Source: Thermoanaerobaculia bacterium
GTDB taxonomy: Bacteria; Acidobacteriota; Thermoanaerobaculia; Multivoradales; JAGPDF01
Reading direction: 5' to 3'
Length of the DNA stretch: 64,000 nt
Assembly: GCA_018057705.1 (NCBI GenBank)
Contig: JAGPDF010000013.1
Coordinates: 1 to 64,000 of the forward strand
Shown: positions 3,943 through 45,632 of the stretch, in pieces
Layout of the letters: each line of letters opens with the position of its first letter
Position numbering within the stretch: position 1 is the first letter of the stretch
Made by a program: the position numbers and the translations under genes
Notes under the pieces: model-generated
Database searches by the model: none
Told to the model about the DNA's origin: nothing
Seen by the model: only the letters and a program-made list of their open reading frames with translations

Positions 3943-4533
3943 CTAGGGAGTACTGAATGGAGGTGGAGGAGGTGCAGAGCCGCGGGCAACTGGCGGCTGA
4001 GGCGTGGAAGGTGCACGGCCGCTGGTTGGTGGAAGCGGAGGCGGCCCCCCGCCGTGGATGGACAACTCATCCCACCGTCGCCTTGTAAGAAGAAGTCCAA
4101 CTTGGAACGCGAGCGGAACAAAGAGCGCCGCCGACGCAACATCCCACGCATCTAGATTGAAAGCGCCCCACAAGCCTGTGTGTTCGCCTGTACTAAAGTT
4201 AGCCTGGCCCAGCTGGCTGTTCCCTTCAAGCATTTCTGCGAATGCCCGGTTTCCAGAGGCGATGCCGACCTTTGCCGAGCGAAAGCCGATAGCGGGCCAA
4301 ATATCATCCATCCATAGAAAAAAGACCGCAGTGGTGAGCATGGCGAGGACCTTCGCTGGGACTGACCTGGAGAATCGGTAGCTGATCAGAAAACCGGCGC
4401 AGCCGTAGCAGAAGGGCTCCAGAAACCTGTCCACAAAGCCGAAAAGAGCGAGTTGGACTGGGAAGGTCTCCATTGGACCTAGTCCACCAACGGGACTGTT
4501 CGGGAAGATCTGGAGCTCATGCGTCCGCTCCAT
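3943..4533 (-). CDS. Hypothetical membrane protein with proline-rich tail
   Basis: 196 residues. There are at least three hydrophobic segments (about 25-50 LALFGFVDRFLEPFCYGCAG; about 60-75 KVLAMLTTAVFFLWM; about 130-150 VASAALFVPLAFQVGLLLT). The last 45 residues form a strikingly proline-rich cytoplasm-sized tail (GGGPPPLPPTSG, then SAPPPPPFSTP). The start overlaps the end of the GYF_2-DUF2569 gene by 17 bases on the same strand, so the two are very likely translated together. Proline-rich peptides are the known ligands of eukaryotic GYF domains, so an interaction between tail and neighbour is an attractive but untested idea. No known family recognised. Confidence 0.6.
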   Translation of the reverse strand: MERTHELQIFPNSPVGGLGPMETFPVQLALFGFVDRFLEPFCYGCAGFLISYRFSRSVPAKVLAMLTTAVFFLWMDDIWPAIGFRSAKVGIASGNRAFAEMLEGNSQLGQANFSTGEHTGLWGAFNLDAWDVASAALFVPLAFQVGLLLTRRRWDELSIHGGGPPPLPPTSGRAPSTPQPPVARGSAPPPPPFSTP

Positions 4534-38823: not shown

Positions 38824-40578
38824 TCATCCTTGTCCGGGAGCCTCGGGGAGCTCCGCCAGCAATCGATAGACCTCGGCTCCCGAGCGGGCGGCGCAGCAGG
38901 CCACCGCCAGGCGGGCCGCGTCGCCGGCACGAATGCCGGCCATCTTCAGGCGCAGCGCCGGGATCGCGCTCGGCGAGGCGGACACCCTGCGCAGGCCGAG
39001 GCCGACCAGAAGCGGCAGCATCTGGGCGTCCGCCCCCATCTCGCCGCACAGGCTGACGGGGATGCCGGCCGCGTCAGCGCTCTCGATGACGAAGCGTAAC
39101 ATGCGGAGAATCGCTGGATGGACCGGTTCGTAGAGGCTCGCCACGCTGCGATTGTTGCGGTCGACGGCCAGGGAGTACTGGATCAGGTCGTTGGTGCCGA
39201 TCGCCATGAAGTCCACGACCCGCGCCAGGCTGTCGGCGATGATCGCTGCTGCCGGCACCTCCACCATGATGCCGACCTTGACCGTGGAGCGGTGGGCGAT
39301 GCCCTCTCGCGCGAGCTCGGCGGCGGCCTCCCCGAGGAAGCCGCGCAAGGCCTCGACCTCCTCCACCCGGCTCACCATCGGCGCCATGATCCAGAGATCG
39401 CCGGCATCGGCGGCGCGCAGGAGCGCCCGGATCTGGGTGCGGAAGATGTGCGGCCGGGCGAGAGTCAGCCGGATCCCGCGCAGGCCGAGAACCGGATTCT
39501 CCTCGGCGCTGTCCATCATCTCCCGTGCGAGCTTGCGCCCTCCGAGATCGTAGGTCCGGACGACGGCCGGGAAAGGAGCGGCGGCCTCGATGAGCTGGAG
39601 GTAGACCCGCAGATGATCCTCTTCGGTGGGCAGGTGGGGGTCGGTCTCCATGTACAGGAACTCGCTGCGGTAGAGCCCGATCCCCCGCGCGCCGAGACGG
39701 TTGAGGGTGCCCAGCTCTTCCGGCAGATCGATGTTCGCCATCAACTCGACCGGGACGCCGTCCGCGGTGACCGGAGGCGACTCGCGCGACTCGGCTACTC
39801 CAGCCCCGGTCGCGACCTGCGCGGCGCGCAGCTGCTGGTACTCGGCCAGGACCTCCGGGGTCGGATGCAGAATGACCAGGCCGGCCCGGCCGTCCACGAT
39901 CACCGGGTCGGAGTTCGTCACGTAGTCGGTGACTTCCTCGAGACCGGTCACCGCGGGCAGCCCGAGCGACCGGGCGATGATCGACGTATGCGAGGTCCGG
40001 CCGCCGGCCTCGATGGCGAAGCCGACGACCTTGTCGCGGCCCAACCGGATCGCTTCCGACGGCATGAGGTCGTCGGCGACGAGGATCACGTCGCCGGTGA
40101 CGTCCGAGATCTCGTGGTGGGCGATCCCCTGCAGCACTCTCTGGAGCTGTCGACCGATGTCCTCCAGATCCTGTCCGCGCTCGCGGAGGTAAGGATTCTC
40201 GATCTCCGAGAATCGCTTGGCGAGCTCGCGCGACGTCTCGTGCACGGCCCACTCGGCGTTCACCTGCTCCTCGACGATGCGGCGCTCGACCTGATCGAGG
40301 AACATGCGGTCCGAGAGCAGCAGCGAGTGGGCGTCGAAGATGGCGGCCAACTCCTGGCCGAAGAGATGGCTCGCCTTGGCTCGTGTCCGCTGGATCTGCT
40401 GTTGCGTGGCGCTGCAGGCCGCCTTGAGCCTGGCGACTTCGGCATCGGTCTCTTCCGCGGCGATCGGGATGCGGAACACCTCGAGCGCGCGGTTCGCGAT
40501 GACGACGGCTCGACCGATCGCGACCCCTTGAGAGGCCGGCAATCCCTGCAGCGTGATCATCGGTCGGATCCCGGTCAT
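38824..40578 (-). CDS. ptsI: PTS enzyme I (phosphoenolpyruvate-protein phosphotransferase)
   Basis: 584 residues. Enzyme I takes phosphate from PEP onto a His and passes it to HPr. The phospho-swivel His is H197 in IEAGGRTSHTSIIARS. The PEP-binding barrel has GIGLYRSEFLYM, VVRTYDLGGRK, ENPVLGLRGIRL, KVGIMVEVPAAAI, IGTNDLIQYSLAVDRNN and the active-site Cys in SLCGEMGAD. There is no N-terminal GAF domain, so this is PtsI rather than PtsP. The start overlaps ptsH by four bases. No EIIB or EIIC gene is in the window. Confidence 0.95.
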   Translation of the reverse strand: MTGIRPMITLQGLPASQGVAIGRAVVIANRALEVFRIPIAAEETDAEVARLKAACSATQQQIQRTRAKASHLFGQELAAIFDAHSLLLSDRMFLDQVERRIVEEQVNAEWAVHETSRELAKRFSEIENPYLRERGQDLEDIGRQLQRVLQGIAHHEISDVTGDVILVADDLMPSEAIRLGRDKVVGFAIEAGGRTSHTSIIARSLGLPAVTGLEEVTDYVTNSDPVIVDGRAGLVILHPTPEVLAEYQQLRAAQVATGAGVAESRESPPVTADGVPVELMANIDLPEELGTLNRLGARGIGLYRSEFLYMETDPHLPTEEDHLRVYLQLIEAAAPFPAVVRTYDLGGRKLAREMMDSAEENPVLGLRGIRLTLARPHIFRTQIRALLRAADAGDLWIMAPMVSRVEEVEALRGFLGEAAAELAREGIAHRSTVKVGIMVEVPAAAIIADSLARVVDFMAIGTNDLIQYSLAVDRNNRSVASLYEPVHPAILRMLRFVIESADAAGIPVSLCGEMGADAQMLPLLVGLGLRRVSASPSAIPALRLKMAGIRAGDAARLAVACCAARSGAEVYRLLAELPEAPGQG

Positions 40579-40844
40579 TCGCTCTCTCCGAATCGGTCGG
40601 CAAAAAGGGCGGCGATCTCGTTCACCGCCCGTTCTTCGTCGGGCCCGTCGCAGCGCACCCCGAGCTTCGAGCCCTGTGGCGCGGCGAGCAGCAGAAGTCC
40701 GAGGATGCTCTTCGCGTCCACGTCCTCGCCAGCGAACAGGACGCTCACGCGACAGGAAAAACCGCTCGCGAGGTGCACCAGCTTGGCGGCCGCCCGGGCA
40801 TGAAGGCCCAGGCGGTTCACGATCTCGATCTCGCGCTCAATCAT
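40575..40844 (-). CDS. ptsH: Phosphocarrier protein HPr
   Basis: 89 residues. The catalytic His15 lies in NRLGLHARAAAKLV. The regulatory Ser46 lies in VDAKSILGLLLLAAPQG, the site modified by HPr kinase, which is encoded two genes upstream. Both sites are intact, so HPr can be phosphorylated by enzyme I at His15 and by HprK at Ser46. It overlaps the mannose-type EIIA gene by eight bases and ptsI by four. Confidence 0.95.
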   Translation of the reverse strand: MIEREIEIVNRLGLHARAAAKLVHLASGFSCRVSVLFAGEDVDAKSILGLLLLAAPQGSKLGVRCDGPDEERAVNEIAALFADRFGESE

Positions 40845-41280
40845 GGTCGGAGCACCCGACGGCCGGCGGCGGCGGCGGTCCTTTGGGATCCGCCGTGCCT
40901 CCGCGGCAGATGCTCCTTCTTCCCTTCTCTTCCAGCCAGCGGGCCGTCTCGATGAGCGGCCCCGGCAGCACCGAGGAGCAGCTCATCCGGACGACCATCG
41001 GCAGATTGACACCCGTCACCACTTCGATCCGTCCCGGCACCGCCAGGGCGATCGCCGCGTTCGAGGGCGTGCTGCCGTACATGTCCGTGAGAATGAGGAC
41101 CCCATCGCCGCGATCGAGGCCGGCGACCGCGGCGGCGATCCGCTCGCGCGCCGCGTCGATGCCCTCGTTCCATTCGAGCGACAGCGCCCGGATATCCGGC
41201 CGGACGCCGGCGATCGTCTCCGCCGCCGCGAGCAGCTCCTGCGCGAGTCGTCCCTGCGTCACCAGCAGTACGGCGGTCAA
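40837..41280 (-). CDS. Mannose-type PTS EIIA protein lacking the phospho-acceptor His
   Basis: 147 residues from TTG 41280, which overlaps the rapZ stop; no ATG or GTG gives the complete first strand. The fold is EIIA-Man: first strand TAVLLVTQGRLAQELLAAAE, then ALSLEWNEGIDAARERI, GVLILTDMYGSTPSNAAIAL and VVTGVNLPMVVRMS. In active members the first strand ends in a THG motif whose His (His10 in E. coli ManX) is phosphorylated by HPr. Here the codon is CAG and the motif reads TQG, so phosphorylation at that place should be impossible. The C-terminus adds a Pro-rich tail (GPPPPPAVG). Confidence 0.85.
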   Translation of the reverse strand: MTAVLLVTQGRLAQELLAAAETIAGVRPDIRALSLEWNEGIDAARERIAAAVAGLDRGDGVLILTDMYGSTPSNAAIALAVPGRIEVVTGVNLPMVVRMSCSSVLPGPLIETARWLEEKGRRSICRGGTADPKGPPPPPAVGCSDHD

Positions 41281-42176
41281 GATTTCGACCTTTCGAGATC
41301 TCGGTGCTTCACTCGCACCGTCCAGCTGGCCTCCCCGAGTTGCGCCGCGAGGGCCTCGACGGAGGCGACCGACCGATGCTGGCCGCCGGTGCAGCCGATG
41401 CCGATCGTGAGGTAGCTGCGATTCTCCTGCTGGTAGCGCGGCAGGAGGAAGCGCAGGAGGTCGGCGAGCCGCGTGACCAGCTCCTGGAAATCCGTCTTCT
41501 GGCGGAGGAACTCGCGCACCGGCTCGTCCAGGCCGGTGAGTGGCCGCAGGTCCGGATCGAAGTGCGGATTGGGCAGGAAACGGACGTCGAACAGCAGGTC
41601 CGCACCGAACGGGGCTCCGTGCTTGTAGCCGAAGCTGACCAGGCTCACGTTCATGACCGGCTCGTGGCCGGCGTCGCGCCCGAACTCGCGGTAGATGAGG
41701 CTGCGAATGTCGTGGATCGACCAGTCGCTGGTGTCGAGAATGAGGTCGGCGGCGCCGCGCAGCTCGCTCATCATGGCGCGCTCGGCGCGGATGCACTCGA
41801 CCACCGGCAGCTCGTCGGAAAACGGATGCGGCCGCCGCGACTCAGAGAAGCGCCGAATCAGCGCCTCTTCCGAGGACTCGAGGAAGACGAGCGTCGTCTG
41901 GATCCGGTTGCGATCGAGCTCGGCGAGGAGGAGTGGCGCCTCGGCGGCGAAGCCCGGAGCGCGCATGTCCATCACCACTGCGATGTGGTCGCGCCCAGGG
42001 ACGAAGTCGAGCGGCGCAGCCACGAACTGCCGCAGCAGCGGCAAGGGCAGGTTGTCGACGCAGTAGTACCCGAGGTCCTCGAAACACTTCGCGACGGTGC
42101 TCTTCCCCGATCCGGAGAGCCCGGTGACGAGGACCAGCCTGGCCCTAGCGGGGCTTGCCGCTTCGGCTGCGCTCAA
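41277..42176 (-). CDS. rapZ: RNase adapter / nucleotide-binding protein RapZ
   Basis: 299 residues. The N-terminal kinase-like domain has Walker A GLSGSGKS (19-26), LGYYCVDNLPLPLLRQF and VVMDMRAPGF. The C-terminal domain contains VSLVSFGYKHGAPFGADLLF, DVRFLPNPHFDPDLRPLTG and IGIGCTGGQHRSVASVEALA, the family signature. In enterics RapZ binds glucosamine-6-phosphate and steers RNase E to small RNAs; in other phyla its targets are unknown. It overlaps hprK by 32 bases and the EIIA gene by four. Confidence 0.95.
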   Translation of the reverse strand: MSAAEAASPARARLVLVTGLSGSGKSTVAKCFEDLGYYCVDNLPLPLLRQFVAAPLDFVPGRDHIAVVMDMRAPGFAAEAPLLLAELDRNRIQTTLVFLESSEEALIRRFSESRRPHPFSDELPVVECIRAERAMMSELRGAADLILDTSDWSIHDIRSLIYREFGRDAGHEPVMNVSLVSFGYKHGAPFGADLLFDVRFLPNPHFDPDLRPLTGLDEPVREFLRQKTDFQELVTRLADLLRFLLPRYQQENRSYLTIGIGCTGGQHRSVASVEALAAQLGEASWTVRVKHRDLERSKS

Positions 42177-43104
42177 GTTGCTCCTCCAGCTTGCGCGCGA
42201 ACTCGCGCGCGGAGTGCGTGCCCTGCAGCTTCAACACATGATTTCGCGCCGCGATCTCGACCAGGTTGGCGACGTTTCGCCCCAGCGCGACCGGCATGCG
42301 GATGTAGGGACAGGGCGTGTCGAGGATGCTGAACACGGTCTCATCGAGGCCGAGCCGGTCATAGGCCTGCCCCTCGCGCCACGGTTCGAGCTCCACCACC
42401 AGGTCGATCGGCTTGCGGGCGCGGATCGCCGCCAGTCCGAAGAGGTCCTTGACGTTGATGATGCCCAGGCCACGCAGCTCCATGTGGTGCTTCAACGTCT
42501 CCTCGGAGAATCCGACGAGCTCGCCGCTCGGATAGCGCTTGATCGTGACGCGGTCGTCGGAGACGAGGCTGTGGCCGCGGGTGATCAGGTCGAGAGCGGC
42601 TTCGCTCTTGCCGACGCCGCTCGATCCGATGAGCAGCACGCCCAGGCCGTAGATGTCGAGCAGCACGCCATGGAGCCGGGTCGACGGCACGAGGTGGTCT
42701 TCGAGAAACCACGAGAGCTGCTTGATCACCACCGAGGAGAGCGCCCCCGACTGCAGGACGGGAATCTGACGCGCCCGGAACTCGTGGAGGAACTCCTGCC
42801 CGGGAACCAGTGCCTTGGTGATCACGACGACCGGTATCGGCAGGGCGGCAATGCGGCGCAGCCGCTCGCGGCGTTCCCCTTCCTCGACGGTCTTCAGGTA
42901 CTCGAGCTCGCTCTCTCCGACGATCTGCACGCGGCCAGGCTTGATGTACTCGTAGTAGCCCGCGAAGGCGAGTCCGGGCTTCTGCACGCGCGGGTGCGTG
43001 ATCGGATTGTCGAGATGGTTCTCGCCGGCGAGGACGGAGAGGCGCAGATCGGCGAGCTCACCGCCGAAGAGCTCGCTCACCAACACGCTATGGGTCTCAG
43101 GCAT
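42145..43104 (-). CDS. hprK: HPr kinase/phosphorylase
   Basis: 319 residues. The N-terminal domain is about 1-130. The C-terminal kinase has Walker A GSSGVGKS at 160-167, RGHSLVSDDRVTIKR, the HprK signature ELRGLGIINVKDLFGLAAIR and ALGRNVANLVEIAARNHVLK. It phosphorylates HPr on Ser46 and also removes the phosphate. In bacteria without a sugar PTS it is thought to tune regulatory phosphorelays. The gene overlaps ptsN by eight bases and rapZ by 32. Confidence 0.95.
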   Translation of the reverse strand: MPETHSVLVSELFGGELADLRLSVLAGENHLDNPITHPRVQKPGLAFAGYYEYIKPGRVQIVGESELEYLKTVEEGERRERLRRIAALPIPVVVITKALVPGQEFLHEFRARQIPVLQSGALSSVVIKQLSWFLEDHLVPSTRLHGVLLDIYGLGVLLIGSSGVGKSEAALDLITRGHSLVSDDRVTIKRYPSGELVGFSEETLKHHMELRGLGIINVKDLFGLAAIRARKPIDLVVELEPWREGQAYDRLGLDETVFSILDTPCPYIRMPVALGRNVANLVEIAARNHVLKLQGTHSAREFARKLEEQLERSRSGKPR

Positions 43105-43588
43105 GCGATGGCTCCCCGGCGCCGGCGCGGAGCGCAGAAATCAGCTCCAGCGATCCGCGAGCCTGCAACAGGAGCTCCCGTCGTTCCGGCTCCCGCAGGA
43201 ATCGCGCGACTGTGGCCAGTGCCTCGAGGTGCCCCCCGGCGCCGGATTGAGGGGCCACGATGGCGAAGAAGACCTTCACCGGCGTGCCGTCGGGCGCTTC
43301 GAAGTCGACACCGACGGGGTGACTGGCCACCGCCATGTGAACTCTGCTGGCTCCTTCCACTCGGCAATGCGGAATGGCGAAACCGTTTCCGACAGCTGTC
43401 GATCCGAGCGCTTCGCGCTCGAGGAATCCCGACCGAATGGCGGCGGCGGACGTTTCCGTCACCGCTCGGGATACCCCGGCGGCGATCTCGTCGAGCACTC
43501 CGGACGCGGAGGTCGCCGCGAGCGCGGGCAGAACGAGCTCGGAGCGAAGCCACTTCGAAAACGTCGAATCCGGAAGTCCGCCTCTCAA
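43097..43588 (-). CDS. ptsN: PTS EIIA fructose/nitrogen-type regulatory protein
   Basis: 163 residues. It has a PTS EIIA type-2 fold with its phospho-acceptor His in the canonical motif GNGFAIPHCRVEGASRVHMA. The helical part AAAIRSGFLEREALGSTAVG and PVKVFFAIVAPQSGAGGHLEALA match the family. In the PTS-Ntr system this protein reports PEP/HPr state to potassium transport, sigma-54 functions and others. It lies three bases downstream of hpf and overlaps hprK, keeping the classic rpoN-hpf-ptsN order. Confidence 0.88.
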   Translation of the reverse strand: MRGGLPDSTFSKWLRSELVLPALAATSASGVLDEIAAGVSRAVTETSAAAIRSGFLEREALGSTAVGNGFAIPHCRVEGASRVHMAVASHPVGVDFEAPDGTPVKVFFAIVAPQSGAGGHLEALATVARFLREPERRELLLQARGSLELISALRAGAGEPSHA

Positions 43589-43591
43589 AGA

Positions 43592-44143
43592 TCAGATCTC
43601 GGGAACGATGAGGCCGTAGTCGTCGTCGTGCCGGCGGTAGATGACGCTGACTTTCTCGTTCTCCAGGTCGCGGAAGACGATGAATTCGCTGCGCGAGCTC
43701 TCGAGCTTCAGCGCGGCTTCGGTGATGGTCATCGAATGGATCTCGAGATGGCTCGACTTGACGACGATCGGCGACTCGCCCTGGCGCACACTCTCCCGCG
43801 TCAGAACCTCCACCGGCCACTGCTGAGCGCTGGCCTCGGAGCGGTCCTGGCGGCGTGGATGATCGACCTGGCGCTTGCGCGCCCTCTTCGCCTGCTCTTC
43901 CACCTTCTCGGTGGCGAGAAGGAGCGCGTCGTGCAGCTCGACCGCCTCCTCTCCGGCCAGGAACTCGCCCGAAGCGCAGCGCACCTTGATCTCGACCGAG
44001 TGCCGGAATTTTCCCGCCTCGAGGACGATGTGCGCGTCGATCGGTTCGGGGAGGAACCTCTTGAGCCTCTCCAGCTTCTCGGCGGCCAGGGTTCGCGTCT
44101 TCTCCGCGACCTGCAGGTGCCTGCCGACGAATTCGATGTTCAT
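43592..44143 (-). CDS. hpf: Ribosome hibernation-promoting factor, long form
   Basis: 183 residues. The N-terminal S30AE domain (about 1-100) has MNIEFVGRHLQVAEKTRTL, FLPEPIDAHIVLEAGK and LHDALLLATEKVEEQAKRAR. A basic linker follows, then the dimerisation domain of long HPF (about 130-183, LEIHSMTITEAALKLESSRS, EFIVFRDLENEKVSVIYRRH, DYGLIVPEI). Long HPF alone pairs 70S ribosomes into inactive 100S. Gamma-proteobacteria have the short form at this place in the rpoN cluster, so the long form here is a lineage difference. Confidence 0.95.
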   Translation of the reverse strand: MNIEFVGRHLQVAEKTRTLAAEKLERLKRFLPEPIDAHIVLEAGKFRHSVEIKVRCASGEFLAGEEAVELHDALLLATEKVEEQAKRARKRQVDHPRRQDRSEASAQQWPVEVLTRESVRQGESPIVVKSSHLEIHSMTITEAALKLESSRSEFIVFRDLENEKVSVIYRRHDDDYGLIVPEI

Positions 44144-44159: not shown

Positions 44160-45632
44160 TCAGAAGATGCGTTTGCGATCCGAGGATGAAGGCACGTTCA
44201 GCTCGTCCCTGTACTTGGCCACGGTCCGCCGGGCAATCTGGATGCCTTCGCGGTTGAGGATGCGCATCAGCTCGCTGTCGGAGAGCGGATGCCGCGTGTC
44301 CTCCGACTCGACCAGCTGCCGGATCTTGCGCTTCACGGTGAGCGACGAAATATCCTCGCCGTAGTCCCGGTCGATGCCGCTGTGAAAGAAGTACTTGAGC
44401 GGGAAGAGACCGCGCGGCGTATGCATGTACTTGTTCGACACCACCCGGCTCACCGTGGACTCGTGCATGCCGATGTCTTCGGCGACGTCGCGCAGCACCA
44501 TCGGCCGGAGGTGATCCAGGCCGTGGTCGAGGAAGTCGCGCTGCTGGCGGACGATCGAGGTCGCGACCTTGTAGATCGTGCGTTGCCGCTGGTCGAGACT
44601 CTTGATCATCCAGAGCGCCGAGCGCATCTTCTCGGAGATGAACTGCTGGGCGTCGTTCTGGCGGCCCTCCTGCCGGAGATTCTTCAGCATCCTGCGGTAG
44701 GACCTCGAGATCCGCAGCCGCGGCAGGCCGTCGTCGTTCAGCTGAATGACGTATTCGTCTCCCACCCGGATGACGTGGACGTCGGGCTCGATGTAGTGCG
44801 TGCGATCGTTGGTGAACTTGCGGCCCGGCCGTGTCTGGAGGGTCTTGATCTCCTCGATGACCGGCTCCAGGTCGGCCAGGGTGACCCCGAGGGCGCGCGC
44901 GATCGTCGCGTACTGGCGGCGCAGGAAGAGCTCCCAGTGGTCCGCGAGCACCTGGCGTGTGATCGAGTCGGCCGGCTCGCCGCGCAGATCGAGCTGCAGG
45001 AGCAGGCTCTCGCGGAGGTTCTCGCAGGCGATTCCCGGCGGATCGAGCCGCCGCACCTGTTCGAGGACGGCGCGCACCTGCTCCATGGCGAGCGGCTGTT
45101 CGCGCCCCGAGCTCGCCAGCTCGTGAATCTCCTCGAGCGAGGCGGCCAGGAAGCCGTCCGGGTTCAGGTTGCCGACGATGAGCTCGGCGATCTCGCGCTC
45201 GAGCGGCGGGAAGTCCGAGAGATGGATCTGCCAGAGCAGGTGGTCGTAGAGGTCGGGCTCGCGCGTCAGGGTGTTCTCGAGCGGCGGCGCCTCGCGATTC
45301 TCGGATTCGCCGTAGCTGCCACCGTCGTCACCGGAGGCGTCGTCGAGATAGGCCTCGAACGCCACCTGCTCGAGGCGCTGGCGCTCGATCACTTCGGGCG
45401 CCGGGACCTCATCGCGGGCCTCGTCGGGCGAGAGCTCGACCGGCGAGCCGTCCTCCTCCTCCTCTTCGACCTCGCTGGCCTCCTCGAGGACCGGGTTGAT
45501 CTCGAGCTCCTGGGCGACGACCGCCTCGAGCTCGAGGCGGGTCATCTGCAGCAGCTTGATCGCCTGCTGCAGCGACGGCGTCATCACCAGCCGCTGCGAG
45601 AGCTTGAGGGAGAGTTTCTGTTCGAGAGCCAT
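44160..45632 (-). CDS. rpoN: RNA polymerase sigma-54 factor
   Basis: 490 residues. Region I at the N-terminus (LSLKLSQRLVMTPSLQQAIK, LLQMTRLELEAVVAQELEIN) contacts activators. An acidic region II follows (about 50-110). The core-binding domain is central. The C-terminal DNA-binding part has an HTH (VLRDVAEDIGMHESTVSRVV, then NKYMHTPRGLFPLKYFF). The RpoN box is IARRTVAKYRDELN. Sigma-54 transcribes from -24/-12 promoters with AAA+ activators, none of which is in this window. It sits between lptB and hpf as in proteobacteria. Confidence 0.96.
   Translation of the reverse strand: MALEQKLSLKLSQRLVMTPSLQQAIKLLQMTRLELEAVVAQELEINPVLEEASEVEEEEEDGSPVELSPDEARDEVPAPEVIERQRLEQVAFEAYLDDASGDDGGSYGESENREAPPLENTLTREPDLYDHLLWQIHLSDFPPLEREIAELIVGNLNPDGFLAASLEEIHELASSGREQPLAMEQVRAVLEQVRRLDPPGIACENLRESLLLQLDLRGEPADSITRQVLADHWELFLRRQYATIARALGVTLADLEPVIEEIKTLQTRPGRKFTNDRTHYIEPDVHVIRVGDEYVIQLNDDGLPRLRISRSYRRMLKNLRQEGRQNDAQQFISEKMRSALWMIKSLDQRQRTIYKVATSIVRQQRDFLDHGLDHLRPMVLRDVAEDIGMHESTVSRVVSNKYMHTPRGLFPLKYFFHSGIDRDYGEDISSLTVKRKIRQLVESEDTRHPLSDSELMRILNREGIQIARRTVAKYRDELNVPSSSDRKRIF

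Follow-up and report, generated by a model that had tools for sequence, protein, structure and literature searches.

Introduction

Among the systems closest to the one described here are those of alphaproteobacteria, in which ManX and PtsN are both described as terminal acceptors of a permease-less PTS and are encoded in a cluster with hprK (PMC13104625). The EIIA-Man-like protein of Brucella is reported to be phosphorylated by NPr and to bind SucA of 2-oxoglutarate dehydrogenase, and its authors model the dephosphorylated protein as the SucA binder; SucA is also the sole EIIA-Man target with interaction data that we found in the literature (PMC2937029). For R. leguminosarum the active output form is described as unphosphorylated ManX, and in the same account an H9A variant complements the swimming defect of a manX mutant, with a growth defect as a caveat (PMC7617929). 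Replacement of a PTS catalytic His by Gln is on record for Crh, which is described as purely regulatory (PMC9631020). In the open-licence literature we found no prior report of a natural EIIA that lacks its His.

Results

The window, by which we mean the whole stretch of 64,000 nucleotides analysed here, carries a compact minus-strand cluster at 38.8-45.6 kb that comprises rpoN, a hibernation factor gene, ptsN, hprK, rapZ, an EIIA gene, ptsH and ptsI. Furthest upstream, and assigned as open reading frames only, are 44160..45632, which we take to be rpoN (sigma-54), and 43592..44143, presumably a ribosome hibernation factor of the hpf/yhbH type. These are followed by ptsN (EIIA-Ntr, 43097..43588), which keeps its His, as the initial annotation had noted, and is the sole PF00359 match of the window's genome, and by hprK (HPr kinase/phosphorylase, 42145..43104, with its Walker A motif) and rapZ (41277..42176), both supported by reading frame and profile. 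The EIIA gene (40837..41280) encodes a 147-residue EIIA-Man-like protein of the ManX/PtsM type; its TTG start sits within the rapZ stop (41280-41277) and its own stop at 40837 is overlapped by the ATG of ptsH at 40844, in agreement with the overlaps on both sides given in that annotation. HPr, encoded by ptsH (40575..40844), retains His15 and Ser46, and enzyme I (EI), encoded by ptsI (38824..40578), retains its active His. The linkage to hprK and ptsH that characterises the regulatory ManX of permease-less systems is thus present in the window. A terminator-like hairpin with a T run lies at 40607-40630 on the minus strand, within the end of ptsH and just before ptsI, where two overlapping matches against 0.7 expected may be due to chance; a scan of the window for promoters and terminators gained nothing further.

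Translation of 41280-40837 on the minus strand gives LTAVLLVTQGRLAQELL..., in which residue 9 is Gln, encoded by CAG at 41256-41254. The motif reads TQG where solved EIIA-Man proteins have THG, and TQG is also what was first annotated. The protein matches the Pfam EIIA-man family (PF03610) with an E-value of 1.1e-19 and 71.1 bits against a cut-off of 21.4, and it retains Asp66, the counterpart of the Asp that pairs with the phospho-His in EIIA-Man; this Asp is kept in 12 of the 12 His-less proteins described below. An AlphaFold2 model built from a 76-sequence alignment has a mean pLDDT of 84.4, with values that exceed 90 in the core up to residue 100 and a low-confidence tail from about residue 126. 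The top Foldseek matches of the model are EIIA-Man chains (3ipr, 3lfh and 1pdo), and it overlays on 1pdo with a root-mean-square deviation of 1.9 Å and a TM score of 0.76 by query length or 0.86 by target length, which bears out the earlier impression that the remainder of the fold is intact. Profile, predicted fold and the Asp beside the active site are all those of EIIA-Man and the phospho-accepting His of the first strand is absent; judged on this sequence and model, the window protein is a member of the EIIA-Man family by descent and presumably not an active, phospho-carrying EIIA.

The genus mate (G001) has His at this site in a protein that is otherwise 84-86% identical, and so do the six remaining members of the family, which confines the loss to one of eight family members. 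Across the order, 63 of 72 genomes encode an EIIA-Man, with 52 His, 8 Gln and 3 Arg at the site; for the class the figures are 135 of 148 genomes, and the 133 EIIAs untruncated at the site comprise 121 His, 8 Gln and 4 Arg. Outside the class, all 51 genomes sampled from the phylum (11 + 40) have His, in a sample drawn from the higher-scoring matches among those listed. Each of the 80 loci recovered by a pattern scan of genome contigs, one of them that of the genus mate, also has His, with patterns that included the Gln form TQGRLAQE. Gln occurs in the window's genome (family f1), in genera g12, g17 and g22 (all of f3) and in g11 (f9), and Arg in g5 (f3) and g37 (f15). EIIA-Man is present as one copy per genome wherever it is found, and an explanation by paralogy was rejected on this ground; the only genome with two matches is G487, where the second is a short fragment at the end of a contig. 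According to the initial annotation, homologues with a conserved His at the same locus would reduce the substitution to a change in a single strain. Such homologues do exist in the genus and family, but the loss recurs in other lineages, and with 11 other genomes lacking the His a single-strain accident was rejected as the whole story.

The number of losses was estimated on a tree of 68 rows (53 His, 8 Gln, 4 Arg, 2 deleted and 1 unknown) built from concatenated HprK, RapZ, HPr and EI, with EIIA left out, under LG+G4 without a mixture; the sampling was thinned, with five rows retained for genus g6 and the remainder of the class represented by a sample. Fitch parsimony gives seven changes between His and non-His, a count that leaves room for reacquisition of His or for exchange of genes within f3, five when His and Gln alone are scored and eight when deletion is included. 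An irreversible count of maximal His-less clades, rooted on class outgroups, likewise gives seven losses, of which one falls in f15 and the other six in the window's order. In the quick tree the f3 backbone contains forks with weak support, and the placement of the f3 rows without His in one clade is rejected by an AU test with p = 0.0002, for a clade that was named after the quick tree had been seen. Mapped on this tree, the His position changes seven times, the conserved Trp and Thr once each, and the adjacent Gly and the G-x-N-L motif not at all, which makes the phosphate site the labile point of an otherwise fixed pocket. The replacements are Gln or Arg in all seven cases, with a chance probability of 0.001-0.002 under random choice among the single-base neighbours of His, a figure that rests on the seven tree-based events and becomes about 0.01 with five. 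The window tip has a branch length of 0.10, and in this lineage the loss is young, since all other members of the family, the genus mate included, still have His. The f15 protein (L234 of G261) sits on a long branch, with Arg (AGG) at the site and Ser-Glu for Thr-Pro in the pocket motif, and is probably the most degenerate protein among those without the His.

The relay that would deliver phosphate is conserved in the His-less genomes. His15 and Ser46 of HPr and the His of PtsN are kept in 12 of 12, the His of EI in 11 of 11 (G048 not being covered) and the Walker A Lys of HprK in 11 of 12, one row having Ala aligned there; the EI His was scored by alignment, since a regular-expression motif, with 76 sequences matched and 64 missed, had proved too stringent. 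Loss of the relay as a whole was rejected on the strength of these retained catalytic residues, and no partner change clearly co-varies with loss of the His, EI position 508 and EIIA position 43 being the only positions to surface. Mannose-type IIB (PF03830) and IID (PF03613) were found in none of the 148 genomes of the class, with matches in control genomes, and therefore the EIIA is not part of a mannose-type permease, with or without its His. The window's genome has one EIIA-Man and one PF00359 EIIA (PtsN), and no PF02378 IIC was found in it.

The SucA-type family PF16870 is present in the window's genome and in 10 of the 11 His-less genomes of the order (all but G040), so that loss of 2-oxoglutarate dehydrogenase is not supported as the reason for loss of the His. 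SucA is thus available as a target in the window's genome, and nothing ties it to the window EIIA. Elsewhere in the order, a 99% complete genome (G039) has a weak HPr match (L280, 61.9 bits) and no EIIA-Man, and the 9 kb that surround this HPr yielded no EI, RapZ, HprK or PtsN. A second HPr-like domain also occurs within a long open frame at each of G012:C42:31468-31701 (855 aa) and G033:C814:6772-6927 (691 aa), which are possibly fused multidomain PTS proteins.

Relaxed constraint is the most serious alternative to a functional reading of the Gln. By this account EIIA-Man is becoming dispensable in the order and loss of the His is the first step of decay towards deletion, and evidence for it comes from genus g4 of the same order, which retains ptsN, hprK, HPr and EI and has cleanly deleted the EIIA gene. 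In L278 (G008) the end of rapZ at 4078 lies 2 bases short of the ptsH start at 4081, and no EIIA match was found in the g4 cluster stretches L278 and L279 (G016); the EIIA is therefore dispensable in some relatives. The recent origin of the Gln in the window's lineage points the same way. In a rate test of 60 rows, 11 of them His-less, the tips of His-less EIIAs are somewhat longer relative to RapZ (p = 0.029), with no significant difference relative to HPr (p = 0.63) or EI (p = 0.30). For g12, dN/dS is 0.21-0.33 for EIIA against 0.06-0.13 for RapZ, and mild relaxation in some lineages is possible in view of these two results. The Pro of the LPM motif is changed in three His-less rows (one in g12, two in g5).

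Against decay, dN/dS is 0.12-0.33 in the seven pairs that include a His-less member, which falls inside the 0.08-0.45 of nine His-His pairs, these being pairwise NG86 estimates for 16 pairs that we picked, with dS often near or above 1. Elsewhere in the His-less proteins, positions conserved to at least 97% retain their residue in 112 of 120 cells. All EIIAs of g12, g17 and g5 examined hold Gln or Arg in open frames; both CAA and CAG are used for the Gln within g12, and CGC, CGG and CGT for the Arg in three g5 species, so the residue is held while its codon drifts. The restriction of the replacements to Gln and Arg also argues against simple decay, which we regard as an unlikely, although serious, explanation of the whole pattern.

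Discussion

We propose that the window protein is a natural phospho-blind ManX, a working regulator locked in the dephospho signalling state, and give this reading a probability of roughly 0.6. It is the best reading of the Gln at residue 9, the seven losses, the conserved pocket, the dN/dS values, the confinement of replacements to Gln and Arg, the intact relay, the absence of mannose-type IIB and IID across the class, the predicted fold and the Rhizobium precedent. An EIIA without the phosphoryl-accepting His would presumably be unable to report HPr~P and would stay fixed in the dephospho conformation, permanently bound to the target of dephospho-ManX, whatever that is. Phosphate would then pass from EI through HPr to PtsN alone, and HprK would continue to act on Ser46 of HPr. 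The Gln, or Arg elsewhere, probably substitutes for the His through a hydrogen bond to the conserved Asp66 that would hold the pocket in its unphosphorylated form; both side chains can donate such a bond. On the other side of the balance, the loss in the window's lineage is young and has had little time to prove function, and the g4 deletion, the longer tips relative to RapZ, the faster g12 EIIAs and the changes at the LPM Pro also count against a functional reading. The initial annotation had suggested a permanent 'unphosphorylated' signal to RapZ or HprK. The signal itself fits the purifying selection, the conserved pocket, the intact relay and the Rhizobium precedent; as for RapZ and HprK as its targets, nothing beyond adjacency speaks for them.

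The remaining alternatives are considerably weaker. The protein could act as a decoy or scaffold that docks HPr without taking phosphate, in which case it would tune how much HPr is left for PtsN and HprK and would not act on a metabolic enzyme. The conserved pocket around the missing His and the adjoining, overlapping ptsH are compatible with such a role, but binding of a different target at this place would lead one to expect the same conservation, and we consider the decoy improbable. Phosphorylation at another residue or a newly recruited acceptor is less probable still: the relay to HPr is intact, but the one His of the window protein is residue 146, in the disordered tail, and inspection of the alignment by eye reveals no alternative His common to the His-less proteins. 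A one-base sequencing or assembly error in the window's genome, to which the His of the genus mate might point, is the least credible of all, because seven further genomes, from four other genera, have Gln and another four, from two genera, have Arg, and an error would need to strike the one codon that varies naturally.

If the window protein is indeed a phospho-blind regulator, its relatives suggest a broader and more speculative model. ManX may have been switched to an always-on form by His to Gln or Arg replacement on six occasions in the order and seven in the class, as counted on our tree, as an EIIA counterpart of Crh that uncouples one regulatory PTS output and leaves the HPr-PtsN output under control; we put this forward tentatively, and rather less firmly than the reading of the window protein itself. 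The new element is the recurrence of the loss. PTS proteins are understood as phosphate carriers, and the repeated loss of the phosphate site of one EIIA, with the rest kept, suggests that the dephospho form does the work, an idea that has so far rested on engineered Rhizobium mutants. The H9Q and H9R alleles that occur in nature, for which the His-bearing genus mate can serve as a control, offer a route to the role of ManX in a permease-less PTS.

Comparison with known systems places the window protein within this regulatory branch of the family. The EIIA-Man of E. coli (1pdo, 2jzn) is its kin in fold and sequence, but carries a phospho-His, which we take to be His10, and feeds a IIB, whereas no mannose-type IIB was found in the window's genome. 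The EIIA domain of DhaM (3ct6) belongs to the same superfamily by fold and is a weaker structural match (TM about 0.5), and inspection of the window's reading frames by eye reveals no Dha kinase gene adjoining the EIIA. The ManX or EIIA-Man-like protein of the alphaproteobacterial PTS-Ntr (R. leguminosarum, S. meliloti and the PtsM of Brucella), as these systems are described, shares the family, the absence of a IIB or IIC partner and the position beside hprK and the HPr gene (PMC13104625, PMC2937029, PMC3665714). In those accounts the alphaproteobacterial ManX has a His, is phosphorylated or taken to be so, and serves with PtsN as a terminal phosphoacceptor, whereas the window EIIA has Gln. 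The laboratory H9A ManX, as reported, is the man-made equivalent of the window protein (PMC7617929). Crh of bacilli, as it has been described, shares with the window EIIA a Gln in place of the PTS His, but is an HPr-like protein that coexists with a normal HPr and still receives phosphate on Ser46, whereas in the window it is the single EIIA-Man copy that has changed, with no second phosphosite known. The window protein has the EIIA-Man fold in place of the HPr fold, Gln15 and HprK-phosphorylated Ser46 that define Crh, and the likeness between the two is one of logic, arrived at by convergence, and not of descent.
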